Positions 4,458 to 9,275 of a stretch of DNA of 64,000 nt are shown in pieces. The translations under genes and the position numbers were made by a program. The DNA lies in assembly GCA_018970085.1 (NCBI GenBank), contig JAGWXD010000012.1, positions 1 through 64,000 on the forward strand, read 5' to 3'. Origin of the DNA: Cyanobacteria bacterium REEB459. GTDB lineage: Bacteria > Cyanobacteriota > Cyanobacteriia > Phormidesmidales > Phormidesmidaceae. Below the pieces are notes generated by a model. It saw nothing but the letters and a program-made list of their open reading frames with translations, did not search any database and had not been told where the DNA came from. How positions within the stretch are numbered: the first letter of the stretch is position 1; each line of letters opens with the position of its first letter.

Positions 4458-5513
4458 ATGGGTAATTTAGCCAGCCACCAGATGTCTCCCCCAATTGCCA
4501 GTCGGGCCAAAGGTAGCGAGATTGCTAGGTTTTACCAATCTCATCAGCTTTTTCGAGATCGCTATCGGGTGCTCAAGCAGTTAGGTAAGGGGGGGTTTGG
4601 GGTTACCTATTTGGCCCAGGATACCCATCTGCCCGCCCAACCCCACTGCGTTATTAAGCAACTTTGCCCCAAGACCACTAACCAAGTAGCCCTGGAACGG
4701 GCTAAGTTACGGTTTCGCCGCGAGGCTCGAGCCCTGGCCAGCCTGGGCAGTCACTCCCAAATTCCTCGCCTGCTCGATTATTTCACCACCGGTGGAGAGT
4801 TCTATCTGGTGCAGGACTACATTCATGGTCAGACCCTGGCCCAGGAAGTACGTCAGCAGGGTCGTCAAACCGAAGCCCAGGTTAAATACTTCCTCAACGA
4901 AATTATTCCTGTCATTAATTTTCTCCATCAGAACCGCATTATTCATCGAGACATTAAGCCTCCCAATATTATTAAAAGTCTGCCGGACAGACGGCTGGTC
5001 TTGATTGACTTTGGTGCGGTTGACGAATTTCTAGCCGATGTCAATGCGGCTGGTATCGATCAGGCGGCGGCCACTCAATTTGTTGGCACCCCTGGCTTTG
5101 CCCCACCCGAGCAACTAGCCCTCCGCCCCTGTTACAGCAGCGATATTTACGCCCTGGGTATGACCTGTTTGTTTCTGCTAACGGGGCGTACCCCTCTAGA
5201 ATTTACCCCCGACCCCCAAACCGGCCAGGTGCTGTGGCAACATACCGTGACCCTGAGCCCCCATTTTGCCAACGTGCTGGATAAAATGCTGCGGCCTACT
5301 CCCCGCGATCGCTACGGGTCCATCGCTGAACTGACCCGAGACCTGGCTTTAGAACCCCATCTAGGTAGTTTGACTAAGTGCATGCATATGGCTCGCGGGG
5401 ATGACCCCTCGCCAACTCCCTTTTGGCCCAGCGATGGCTACCTGACTCCGATCCAACGTCAGGCCCATGCTATTCGCAATCGCCGACACAAACGGGTAAA
5501 TCAGGTTTTCTGA
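4458..5513 (+). CDS. Soluble Hanks-type serine/threonine protein kinase
   Basis: This 351-residue protein is essentially only a kinase domain. The glycine loop GKGGFG is at residues 43-48, the ATP-binding lysine is Lys67 (CVIKQL), the catalytic loop HRDIKPPN is at 163-170, DFG at 184-186, and the activation/P+1 segment GTPGFAPPEQ at 210-219. All key residues are intact, so activity is expected. There is no membrane span or C-terminal sensor domain, so it should be cytoplasmic; a basic tail (RRHKR) ends the protein. It converges with the MscS-type channel gene 20 bp away. The substrate cannot be told from sequence. Confidence 0.93.
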   Translation: MGNLASHQMSPPIASRAKGSEIARFYQSHQLFRDRYRVLKQLGKGGFGVTYLAQDTHLPAQPHCVIKQLCPKTTNQVALERAKLRFRREARALASLGSHSQIPRLLDYFTTGGEFYLVQDYIHGQTLAQEVRQQGRQTEAQVKYFLNEIIPVINFLHQNRIIHRDIKPPNIIKSLPDRRLVLIDFGAVDEFLADVNAAGIDQAAATQFVGTPGFAPPEQLALRPCYSSDIYALGMTCLFLLTGRTPLEFTPDPQTGQVLWQHTVTLSPHFANVLDKMLRPTPRDRYGSIAELTRDLALEPHLGSLTKCMHMARGDDPSPTPFWPSDGYLTPIQRQAHAIRNRRHKRVNQVF

Positions 5514-5533: not shown

Positions 5534-6979
5534 TTATCCCACGGCCTGAATGGTACGGCGGCGAATTTCGAGAATTTGACTAATTTCCCGAGCAAAGCTG
5601 GGCTGGCGATCGATCATTTGGTTCACCACAAAGGCGTCAATCATCAAGACTTCCAGGTCTTCAGTGGCAACTACGGAGACCGCACTGGATTCTCCAGAGA
5701 ATAGGGCCATTTCCCCAAAAAATTCCCCAGCCTTGAGAGTTAGCACCTCTACCTCCTGCTCCAGGCTATTGGTGGTGGTCACCTGTGCCTGGCCAGAAAC
5801 AATAATATATAAGGCATTCCCGGTGTAACCCTGACGAACGATAGATTCTCCGGCGGCAAAGTGTTGCAGCATAATCCCCTGGGAAGGAGACTTGAGTTTT
5901 TGCTGTTGCTTGTCTAGAGGCACAAAGGCGGGAAGGGAATTGAGACTATCGGTGAACTTTTCGGAAATCTGTTTAGCCTGGGTAGTAGGCCCATGGAAAT
6001 GGTATAGGGTCCGACTGGGAAAGGGAATGGTGAGGTGATTGCGTTGGGCGGCGTACCAAACACGGGTCATGAAGCGATCGCGAATTTCCTCCAGTTCGCC
6101 GTAGTCCCGAATAAAAAACTTAACCTCGTAGGTAACGGCAAAATCATCGTAGGAAACCGTGAAAATCTGAGGTTCAGGATCGCTTAGAATTCCCTGGGTT
6201 TCCAGGGCCGTACTTTTTAGTACCTGGCGCGCCAGGTTGGGCGGGTCATTATAGGAAAAGCCCAACCGAATGCGTTCGGCATGCAGTTGGAAGGGCTGGT
6301 TAAAATTACGAATGGTTTCACCGCTAATCACCTTATGGGGAATAATCACCATTTCCCGTTCCAGGGTTTGCAGGCGAATGGCTCGCCAATTAATATCAAT
6401 CACCTGACCCACCACCCCGCCGACGTAAAGCCAGTCGCCGACGGAAAAGGGCCGCTCAAACAGCAGGGCAATCCCCGACATGATGCTACCCAGGGTATCT
6501 TGTAGGGCTAAGGCAATTACCACCGAACTGACCCCCAGGGCCGTCACCAGACCAGCTAAATCGGCATTCCACACCGTCGCTAGCACAATTGCACTACCCA
6601 GCAGAATCAGAAATAAACGGGCCAGATCGATCAGTAATTTGGGTACCCGCGATCGCCAGGTATCCGCCTGGGCCTGTTCAAACAGCATCACATTCAAAAG
6701 CGACAGAGCTCCGTGGATAATCACCACCCAGAGCAGGGTTTCCATCGTCTTAATCAGATGGGACTCAGGGTTGAGGCCCAGCAGGTGCTGCATAAATAAC
6801 AAAAAAACCAGCACTGGCACAATCAGGTTCCGCACCAGACGCAGTGTCCTGGCCAAAGACTGGCCTCGCCGCTGCAATCGATGGATAACCTCACCCAAGC
6901 CTACCGTCACCAATGCGAAGCCCAGTACCAGGGCAGTAGCCCAAACCCAGAGATCAATCTGAATGGTTATGGCTTTCAT
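5534..6979 (-). CDS. MscS-family mechanosensitive channel with C-terminal cyclic-nucleotide-binding-like domain
   Basis: This 481-residue protein begins with about four hydrophobic helices (roughly residues 10-32, 45-68, 80-100, 118-140). The MscS pore helix and beta domain follow (segment ALGVSSVVIALALQDTLGS, then LFERPFSVGDWL). The last ~120 residues form a CNMP-binding-like fold with the phosphate-binding-cassette core GEMALFSGESSAVSV at about 422-436. Glu423 (ribose contact) is kept, but the position of the invariant cassette arginine is Ser432, so canonical cAMP/cGMP binding is doubtful. The gene overlaps the stop of the upstream cyclase by ATGA, so the two are translationally coupled. 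The architecture matches bacterial cyclic-nucleotide-gated MscS-like channels. Likely inner-membrane or thylakoid location. Confidence 0.9.
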   Translation of the reverse strand: MKAITIQIDLWVWATALVLGFALVTVGLGEVIHRLQRRGQSLARTLRLVRNLIVPVLVFLLFMQHLLGLNPESHLIKTMETLLWVVIIHGALSLLNVMLFEQAQADTWRSRVPKLLIDLARLFLILLGSAIVLATVWNADLAGLVTALGVSSVVIALALQDTLGSIMSGIALLFERPFSVGDWLYVGGVVGQVIDINWRAIRLQTLEREMVIIPHKVISGETIRNFNQPFQLHAERIRLGFSYNDPPNLARQVLKSTALETQGILSDPEPQIFTVSYDDFAVTYEVKFFIRDYGELEEIRDRFMTRVWYAAQRNHLTIPFPSRTLYHFHGPTTQAKQISEKFTDSLNSLPAFVPLDKQQQKLKSPSQGIMLQHFAAGESIVRQGYTGNALYIIVSGQAQVTTTNSLEQEVEVLTLKAGEFFGEMALFSGESSAVSVVATEDLEVLMIDAFVVNQMIDRQPSFAREISQILEIRRRTIQAVG

Positions 6980-9123
6980 GACTGCTCTAACTCCTGGTTG
7001 GTTACATCTACGGGAAGGCGGGTACGTTTTAGCCGCCAGGCCGTGACCGGCTCCTTATTATTAGTCAGATCGGGAGCCGCTTCGAAGGGATAGAGATCGT
7101 AGAGACGCTGATGGATAGTCTGAGACACCAGAATACTGCCGGGAGGGCAAGCGTTTTTGAGGGCAGAGGCCAAATTTAAGGTTTCCCCCCAAACATCGTA
7201 AACCACCCGACTACGGCCTACAATGGCCGCCACCAGGTCGCCCGAGTGAACACCAACTTTCAAATTGAGTTTAAACCCCCGCTCCAGATTAAAACGGCGG
7301 ACAATCCCCAGCATATCCAGGGCGAAGTCAACAGCCCGTTTGTCATGGTCGAGATAGGGAACAGAGAGACCACAGACCGCCAGATAGTTATCACCCATGG
7401 TTTTAATTTTTTCCATACCATGGACTCCAGCCGCCTCATCAAAACTACTCACCAAATCATTGAGAATAGAAACCGCTTCGTAGGCGCTCAAATTAGCCGA
7501 AAGTCTGGTAAAACCGGTTAAGTCGGCTATTAAAACAGCCACATTGGAGAGGTCTTCGGCGATGGTTTTCTCTCCCCGTTGCAGGCGTTTGGCAATGGTC
7601 TCAGGAAAAACACTGAGGAGCAGTTTCTCGTTTTCCTGGTTTTTTTGCTCTACCAGGTTAGTTTGGGTGCGCAGGCTTTGAACCATGGCATTAAAGGACT
7701 GCCCTAACTCGCCAAACTCATCTTCAGTGGCCAGATCAGAAATGGTTTCCAGTTCACCAAGGGCAACCCGGCGGGCGCTACTGATTAGTTTTTGAATCGG
7801 TTTAACAAACACATGGGCCAACCCCATAGCCAGCACGGTAACCACCAGCAATAGCAGGGTCGCCGATATCAACACCTGCCGCCGAAAGGAGTAGATGGGG
7901 GCGTAGGCCTCTGCCAGGTCCATCTCCGCCAGAATCCCCCAGTTTAAGCCATCAATATGTAGGGGCGCGTAGGAACTCAATACCGGTATACCCCGATAGT
8001 CGGGAATAATTTGGGTACCCTGTTGTCCGTTTAAGCTGGCCCGCACCGCCAGGGTGTCCACCCGTTGTTGCAAAATCGAGGTGCCATACTGGTTGATGCG
8101 ATTAATATCGGCATCTTTGACCCCAATCGCTCTCAGGCTCTGGGCGTAACCCTGAGGGTCCTGCACCAGAAAGCGAGATACCGATCGCATCATCGTATCA
8201 TCCCCTACCAGGTAGGTCTCACCGGTCTTACCCAAACCATCCCCCTCCCAGTTCTGGTTACCAGTCATAACGGCGTTAATTTCATCCACCGGTAACTGAA
8301 AGGCCAGCACCCCAATTAGGGTGGATTGGCTAAAGATGGGAGCGGCAATAAACGCAGCCGGCGCTCCATAGGAAGGGGCATAGGGCTCAAAGTCAATTAG
8401 CCAGGCATAGTTGCGTTCCTTAGCCCTTTGCACCAGAGCCACTAACCGGGCCAGATTACTATCTTTGTAGGGTCCGGTTTTGAGATTAGTGGTAAAGTCG
8501 GTTTCCTTAAATACGGTATAGACAATATTGCCCTGAGGATCAATCAGGAACATATCGTAGTAGCCAAATTTTTCGATGATGTTACGAAAGATGGGGTGAT
8601 AACGGCCATGAATAGCACTATAGCGACTACCATCCCGGGCCTGGTTAAGCCGATGTTTCTCACCTACCGGGTGGGAGTTAGCGGCGATATAGTAGTACTG
8701 CAAGTAATAGACCTGAGAAACCTTGGGAATGTAGGACTGCAAGAAGGGGGTACCTTCCTGCACCTTGGCTAAGCGGGCCAATAGAACCTGCTGATAATAA
8801 TCCGCCAGTTTGGCAGTCGCCTGGGGGGGTGGCTTTAACCTTGCTGCATCCTGATAGGCGGCGTCAAACTCTGCCATGGCGCTGACAATAGCCGGATTCT
8901 CACTCAGGGTTTGGGTATGGTAACGAATCGTTTTAAAGTAAGCCTCAATCTGGTAGGCCTTAGACGCTCGAACACTGGTTAACTGGCTAAACACCCGATC
9001 AGTCAGGTTAATCTGACCACTGCGATAGCCCAGGTAGGCCGTAATCAAGGTAGATAAACCACTGACCGCTAACAGCATGATAATCAGCTTGGACTTAATG
9101 CTGAGTTGATTTAAAGATCCCAT
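6976..9123 (-). CDS. Membrane class III adenylate cyclase-like protein (dCache-HAMP-cyclase)
   Basis: This 715-residue sensor cyclase has an N-terminal membrane span (about residues 10-33), a long extracytoplasmic dCache-like region (about 40-410), a second span (about 421-443), HAMP (about 444-495) and a class III catalytic domain (about 528-705). Metal aspartates are Asp534 and Asp578. The purine-selecting pair is Lys574 and Asp643 (YDVWG), the adenylate-cyclase type. Asn650 is kept, but the transition-state arginine four residues later is Ala654, which may lower or change activity. The ATG at 9123 is preferred over a GTG 36 bases upstream because it directly precedes the usual N-terminal basic/hydrophobic start. 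Its stop overlaps the channel gene start (ATGA). Confidence 0.9.
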   Translation of the reverse strand: MGSLNQLSIKSKLIIMLLAVSGLSTLITAYLGYRSGQINLTDRVFSQLTSVRASKAYQIEAYFKTIRYHTQTLSENPAIVSAMAEFDAAYQDAARLKPPPQATAKLADYYQQVLLARLAKVQEGTPFLQSYIPKVSQVYYLQYYYIAANSHPVGEKHRLNQARDGSRYSAIHGRYHPIFRNIIEKFGYYDMFLIDPQGNIVYTVFKETDFTTNLKTGPYKDSNLARLVALVQRAKERNYAWLIDFEPYAPSYGAPAAFIAAPIFSQSTLIGVLAFQLPVDEINAVMTGNQNWEGDGLGKTGETYLVGDDTMMRSVSRFLVQDPQGYAQSLRAIGVKDADINRINQYGTSILQQRVDTLAVRASLNGQQGTQIIPDYRGIPVLSSYAPLHIDGLNWGILAEMDLAEAYAPIYSFRRQVLISATLLLLVVTVLAMGLAHVFVKPIQKLISSARRVALGELETISDLATEDEFGELGQSFNAMVQSLRTQTNLVEQKNQENEKLLLSVFPETIAKRLQRGEKTIAEDLSNVAVLIADLTGFTRLSANLSAYEAVSILNDLVSSFDEAAGVHGMEKIKTMGDNYLAVCGLSVPYLDHDKRAVDFALDMLGIVRRFNLERGFKLNLKVGVHSGDLVAAIVGRSRVVYDVWGETLNLASALKNACPPGSILVSQTIHQRLYDLYPFEAAPDLTNNKEPVTAWRLKRTRLPVDVTNQELEQS

Positions 9124-9275
9124 GGCACCACCAGCAGAGAAAAGAATACGGGATACCACTAGCCAGGTTGCCTAGAGCCCGTGGGCAAAAGCCAGGGCTA
9201 GGCCAGACATTCTCGCCAGACTACGACTATAGCCATTCCTGAAATGCCGCCACTGATACATTTGCTTGAACAGTA

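Follow-up and report, generated by a model that had tools for sequence, protein, structure and literature searches.

Does a membrane sensor with a class III cyclase fold, encoded immediately upstream of an MscS-type channel that ends in a CNB fold, control that channel through a cyclic nucleotide? The question is posed by two overlapping genes of Cyanobacteria bacterium REEB459 in the window (the whole stretch of DNA analysed here, 64,000 nucleotides), which a preliminary description had read as a complete sensor-to-channel pathway running from outside ligand to cyclic nucleotide to channel. ORFs and Pfam bore out the gene pair itself, with exact coordinates, both genes on the minus strand, and an ATGA overlap:

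6976..9123, minus strand: dCache-HAMP-class III cyclase homologue, 715 aa from the ATG at 9123 (ORF and Pfam)
7099..7557, minus strand: class III cyclase domain (Guanylate_cyc), a predicted pseudo-enzyme or very poor enzyme
6976..6979, minus strand: ATGA overlap, comprising the cyclase stop TGA (6976-6978) and the channel ATG (6977-6979)
5534..6979, minus strand: MscS-type channel of 481 aa; five membrane helices are predicted, then the MscS beta and C-terminal domains and, at the C-terminus, a CNB fold
5606..5866, minus strand: CNB domain of the channel, evidently repurposed, with a conserved Ser at the canonical phosphate Arg position

The longest form of the cyclase ORF (6976-9159, 727 aa) starts with GTG, and the ATG at 9123 gives a start like those of the family, MGSLNQLSIKSKL; cyclase residue numbers here count from the GTG form. 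The ATGA overlap recurs in many relatives, and suggests that the cyclase and channel are translationally coupled. Pfam assigned Guanylate_cyc (E = 1e-38) and HAMP (E = 4e-12) to the cyclase ORF, and dCache_1 at E = 9e-9 with 35.6 bits, which is under the gathering cut-off of 45; the channel matched MS_channel_2nd (E = 6e-19), MS_channel_3rd (E = 1e-8) and cNMP_binding (E = 3e-21). AlphaFold models of both proteins were consistent with these domain calls (MscS with a C-terminal CNB roll; membrane sensor with a class III fold), the cyclase model presenting a long alpha/beta sensor flanked by two membrane-spanning helices, and fold searches led to MscS channels for the channel and to class III cyclases for the cyclase. 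The models serve as a basis for folds only, that of the channel being of moderate quality (pLDDT 77, pTM 0.39). A Ser/Thr protein kinase gene (window 4458-5513) is convergent with the channel gene and ends about 20 bp away from it.

Conservation of the pair across genomes

We scanned 386 cyanobacterial genomes with each protein as query. A channel of the paired clade (see below) occurred in 26 of these, the family cyclase occurred in the identical 26, and no genome had a single gene of the two (Fisher P = 5e-41, computed without regard to genome relatedness). The co-occurring pair (26 of 26) spans many families, and the cyclases are full length except for one fragment at a contig end and one split copy. 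Other genomes of the scan had an Arg-type channel alone, a catalytic domain alone, or a fusion of the sensor to a chemotaxis domain (G328, G074).

For gene order we took loci from GTDB genomes and from the 386-genome scan, representing 86 distinct channels. By script the cyclase lay directly upstream of the channel for 72 of the 86; the script missed adjacent cyclases at L045, L079, L088 (ATGA) and L049 (Planktothrix, split cyclase), and upstream sequence was too short at three channels, such that the cyclase is directly upstream in about 76 of 83 testable loci, with seven true exceptions. The cyclase is encoded elsewhere in the genome for L067, L068 and L069, on another contig for G105 (L116), and as two family cyclases elsewhere in the genome of Xenococcus (L098), while the genome of L119 has an intact pair besides this additional channel copy. 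The remaining exception (L092) is a Nostoc channel truncated in its N-terminal part, from a genome without the cyclase; this sole single-gene case that we found is a joint loss of channel and cyclase. At L059 the contig is too short for a view of the neighbours, and the cyclase is present in the genome. The split cyclase of Planktothrix rubescens (L049 / G255:C1:4361066-4362206) is divided by about 1.1 kb near residue 560.

Conservation of the gene pair across cyanobacteria had been set beforehand as a check on the proposed pathway, and the pair is indeed conserved. Because of this conserved pairing, and of a co-occurrence without exception in the sample, the sensor and channel most likely belong to a single pathway. 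We reject chance adjacency in view of the co-occurrence (26 of 26, none discordant, among 386 genomes).

The cyclase active site

The window protein has the fold of a class III nucleotidyl cyclase and keeps the metal residues Asp546 and Asp590, the substrate residues Lys586 and Asp655 and the transition-state Asn662, but position 666, that of the transition-state Arg, is Ala. With the fold present and the Arg test failed, 'cyclase homologue' is, on these residues, the appropriate name for the sensor. Losing only the Arg may reduce catalysis without abolishing it. According to a passage of PMC4215837 that cites Yan 1997, most cyclases conserve the Asn-Arg pair, and the same paper describes activity of Ma1120 with Ala instead of Asn, such that an atypical transition-state residue can be tolerated. 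We predict the cyclase domain of the window to be a pseudo-enzyme or a very poor enzyme.

The complete catalytic set was found in only 11 of the 97 distinct ORFs of the family, and K586/D590/D655 were kept in 82 of the 97. On an unrooted tree of 71 dereplicated cyclases, from which the active-site columns had been left out, position 666 (non-Arg in 64 of the 71) changed residue 26 times or more, and the position of the first metal Asp eight times or more. Since Asn with Arg is the canonical state, we read this unrooted tree as indicating that the Arg was probably lost several times in the family. One mainly Nostocales clade (7 of the 71; Nostoc, Tolypothrix, Brasilonema, Hassallia, Tychonema) keeps Asn, Arg and every catalytic residue, so some family cyclases may be active there. 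At the other end, metal or substrate residues have been lost in distant members (L117, L118, L120-L123, L152, L160 and the non-cyanobacterial L099 and L101), and most of these still adjoin a channel.

Purifying selection acts on the cyclase domain: dN/dS was about 0.03-0.15 in most measurable pairs (Arg-less, main clade) and 0.26 in one pair from the wrecked subfamily, with silent sites near or at saturation in comparisons that involve the window cyclase. Asn-Arg is present in the unrelated (non-family) cyclases encoded at these loci. In the window genome, which is 99.8% complete, a single further class III cyclase was found, an FHA-cyclase in which both residues are kept and which looks like type IIIb; complementation by another cyclase of this genome is therefore unlikely.

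The CNB pocket of the channel

The canonical CNB phosphate-binding cassette (PBC) ends in Arg-Ser/Thr-Ala. The cassette of the window channel, FFGEMALFSGESSAVSV, keeps Glu423 and has Ser at the phosphate Arg position, 432. The paired channels, 75 in number, group into a single clade of the 98-channel tree, and their residue at position 432 is Ser in 72, Gln in two and Asn in one; the phosphate Arg is thus absent from every paired channel, including those paired with the intact cyclases of the Nostocales clade, which carry the same Ser. Arg-bearing sister channels (Arg in 20 of 20) all fall outside the paired clade. Glu423 is kept in 67 of the 75, and D441, R464, E465 and E471 have become strongly conserved within the clade; because of these new conserved positions, the CNB is evidently repurposed rather than rotting. 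Elsewhere in the window genome, three other CNBs keep the phosphate Arg, and an NtcA-like CNB is also without it at the position equivalent to 432.

CRIS (PMC3854790) and SLC9C1 (PMC6052114) no longer respond to cAMP once their PBC Arg is changed to Gln. The bCNG channels, as presented in the part of PMC4560390 that cites Caldwell 2010 and Malcolm 2012, are MscS channels with a C-terminal CNB. The window channel shares their architecture, an MscS pore and beta domain with a CNB fold at the C-terminus, and has the Glu of the PBC but not its Arg. As far as that part of the source describes bCNG channels, the window clade differs in carrying Ser at the phosphate Arg throughout and in its obligate partner, a sensor cyclase homologue. 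Failing the defining residue test, the channel would not warrant the label 'cyclic nucleotide-gated' short of an assay.

Because residues that cyclic-AMP signalling cannot do without are missing, one from the cyclase and one from the CNB pocket, the sensor probably acts on the channel in another way. What survives of the complete sensor-to-channel pathway is its unity, upheld by the conserved pair and its co-occurrence, and what falls is the cyclic nucleotide link, given Ser432 and Ala666; on the residues present, that route is not supported in the window organism.

A natural control is provided by one other cyanobacterial family, in which the gene after that of an Arg-intact MscS-CNB channel, in the same orientation, encodes a CHASE2-cyclase (L128, L129, L131, L132, L138, L141) with intact metal, Lys and Asn-Arg residues, so that a cyclic nucleotide pathway looks possible there. 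Like the window pair, it has adjacent channel and cyclase genes on one strand; unlike it, the channel gene precedes that of the cyclase, the sensor is of the CHASE2 type, and both proteins retain the Arg. The residue losses of the window family are therefore neither an alignment artefact nor general to channel-cyclase neighbours.

How the sensor may act on the channel

We favour, at a probability of roughly 45%, a reading in which the two genes yield one sensor-channel unit, a receptor with a pseudo-cyclase, perhaps still nucleotide-binding, that probably contacts the channel and shifts MscS gating without a canonical cNMP. A periplasmic ligand would bind the dCache domain, and HAMP and a coiled coil would relay the signal to the cyclase-homology domain, which probably still binds nucleotide (Lys586, Asp590 and Asp655 being kept) with little or no turnover. 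This domain would serve as a dimeric switch touching the channel, most likely at the repurposed CNB or its linker, and the contact would alter the ease with which the MscS pore opens under tension. The reading starts from the gene order, the co-inheritance, the losses of catalytic and phosphate-binding residues and the purifying selection on the cyclase domain that we observed; from these we infer nucleotide binding, physical contact and an effect on gating.

This reading is further favoured by the lineages with wrecked sites that are still paired (some with an added globin, and two of the loci non-cyanobacterial), and by the presence of the cyclase elsewhere in the genome where the local context is without it. 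What weighs most against it is that mainly Nostocales clade with intact sites (7 of the 71), where the odd CNB might still sense nucleotide; further points against it are the Glu423 kept in 67 of the 75 CNBs, the possibility that Arg loss only lowers catalysis, the atypical residue tolerated by Ma1120 (PMC4215837), and the unlinked genes of a few genomes.

More tentatively still, the pair may be a bacterial two-protein ligand-gated channel, in which a dCache receptor with a pseudo-cyclase gates MscS directly via a CNB no longer binding cyclic nucleotide, and which evolved from a real cyclase-to-channel messenger pathway. Surviving stages of that ancestral pathway would be the intact cyclase with an Arg-less channel (Nostocales) and the fully intact separate pair of the other family. 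If so, a second-messenger pathway has collapsed into direct receptor-channel contact with the enzyme and ligand-domain folds retained, giving bacteria an externally controlled MscS channel; and the domain names 'cyclase' and 'CNB channel' are insufficient on their own for reading cAMP signalling. Because there is a natural series of intact, half-intact and dead pairs, the question is directly testable.

Two serious rivals, each of which we consider unlikely, give the CNB a small ligand. In one, the cyclase, a slow enzyme, makes cyclic nucleotide that is bound by an unusual CNB pocket and gates the channel. The pairing and co-inheritance would suit this, as would the retention by the window cyclase of its metal and substrate residues and its Asn, the full intactness of the mainly Nostocales clade, and the kept Glu423 of the CNB; yet the window pair has neither key Arg, position 666 drifts freely in most lineages, no paired channel has the phosphate Arg, far members without metals and substrate residues remain paired, and the FHA-cyclase, as the only other class III cyclase found in the genome, would be an unlikely complementing partner. 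In the other, a different small ligand has taken the place of cyclic nucleotide in the CNB, as 2-oxoglutarate did in NtcA, and the sensor modulates either the channel or that ligand separately. Ser432 and the new consensus around it are conserved rather than drifting, and the NtcA-like CNB of the window genome is likewise without the Arg, both as this rival would have it, but it leaves unexplained why a partner of cyclase fold is retained without exception.

It is very improbable that these are two independent membrane proteins sharing an operon by chance, for which the unlinked genes of some genomes might speak: such genomes still keep both, the pair is found in 26 of 26 in many families, and the only single-gene case (L092) has a truncated channel. 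Least probable is that the cyclase is a decaying pseudogene, as its lost active-site residues and the split cyclase of Planktothrix rubescens might hint, and full-length open frames with low dN/dS in most relatives lead us to reject it.

Relation to known systems

An open-literature search, whose reach stopped short of the primary bCNG papers, found no paper on the cyclase-channel pair. A defence-system reading was rejected, PADLOC having given weak domain-level matches only; the pair resembles the Pycsar anti-phage systems in joining a class III cyclase fold to a CNB effector, but the window is without a Pycsar-type cyclase or CNB effector (TIR or TM type). With the sensor class III adenylyl cyclases of cyanobacteria the window cyclase shares the order membrane sensor, HAMP and class III catalytic domain, and the metal, substrate and Asn residues; it differs in that it and most of its relatives are without the transition-state Arg, and in its channel partner. 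The KCNH channels (EAG/ERG/ELK) offer a parallel in that their gating domain has a CNB fold that does not bind cyclic nucleotides (PMC3854790), although their channel fold is unrelated and the window pair has a separate cyclase-fold partner; this comparison concerns the gating domain as a whole.

Variant architectures

The same sensor type is fused to a chemotaxis (MCP) signalling domain at L167:1507-3969 and L168:2770-5235, amid response-regulator-like genes. Family cyclases with a wrecked active site have an added C-terminal globin domain at L120, L122 and L170 (4399-6906), and those of L120 and L122 adjoin a channel. Lastly, L099 (bacterium Vin_3) and L101 (Acidimicrobiia) hold a three-gene cassette, consisting of a degenerate cyclase, an MscS-CNB channel with Gln at the Arg position, and a second degenerate cyclase.
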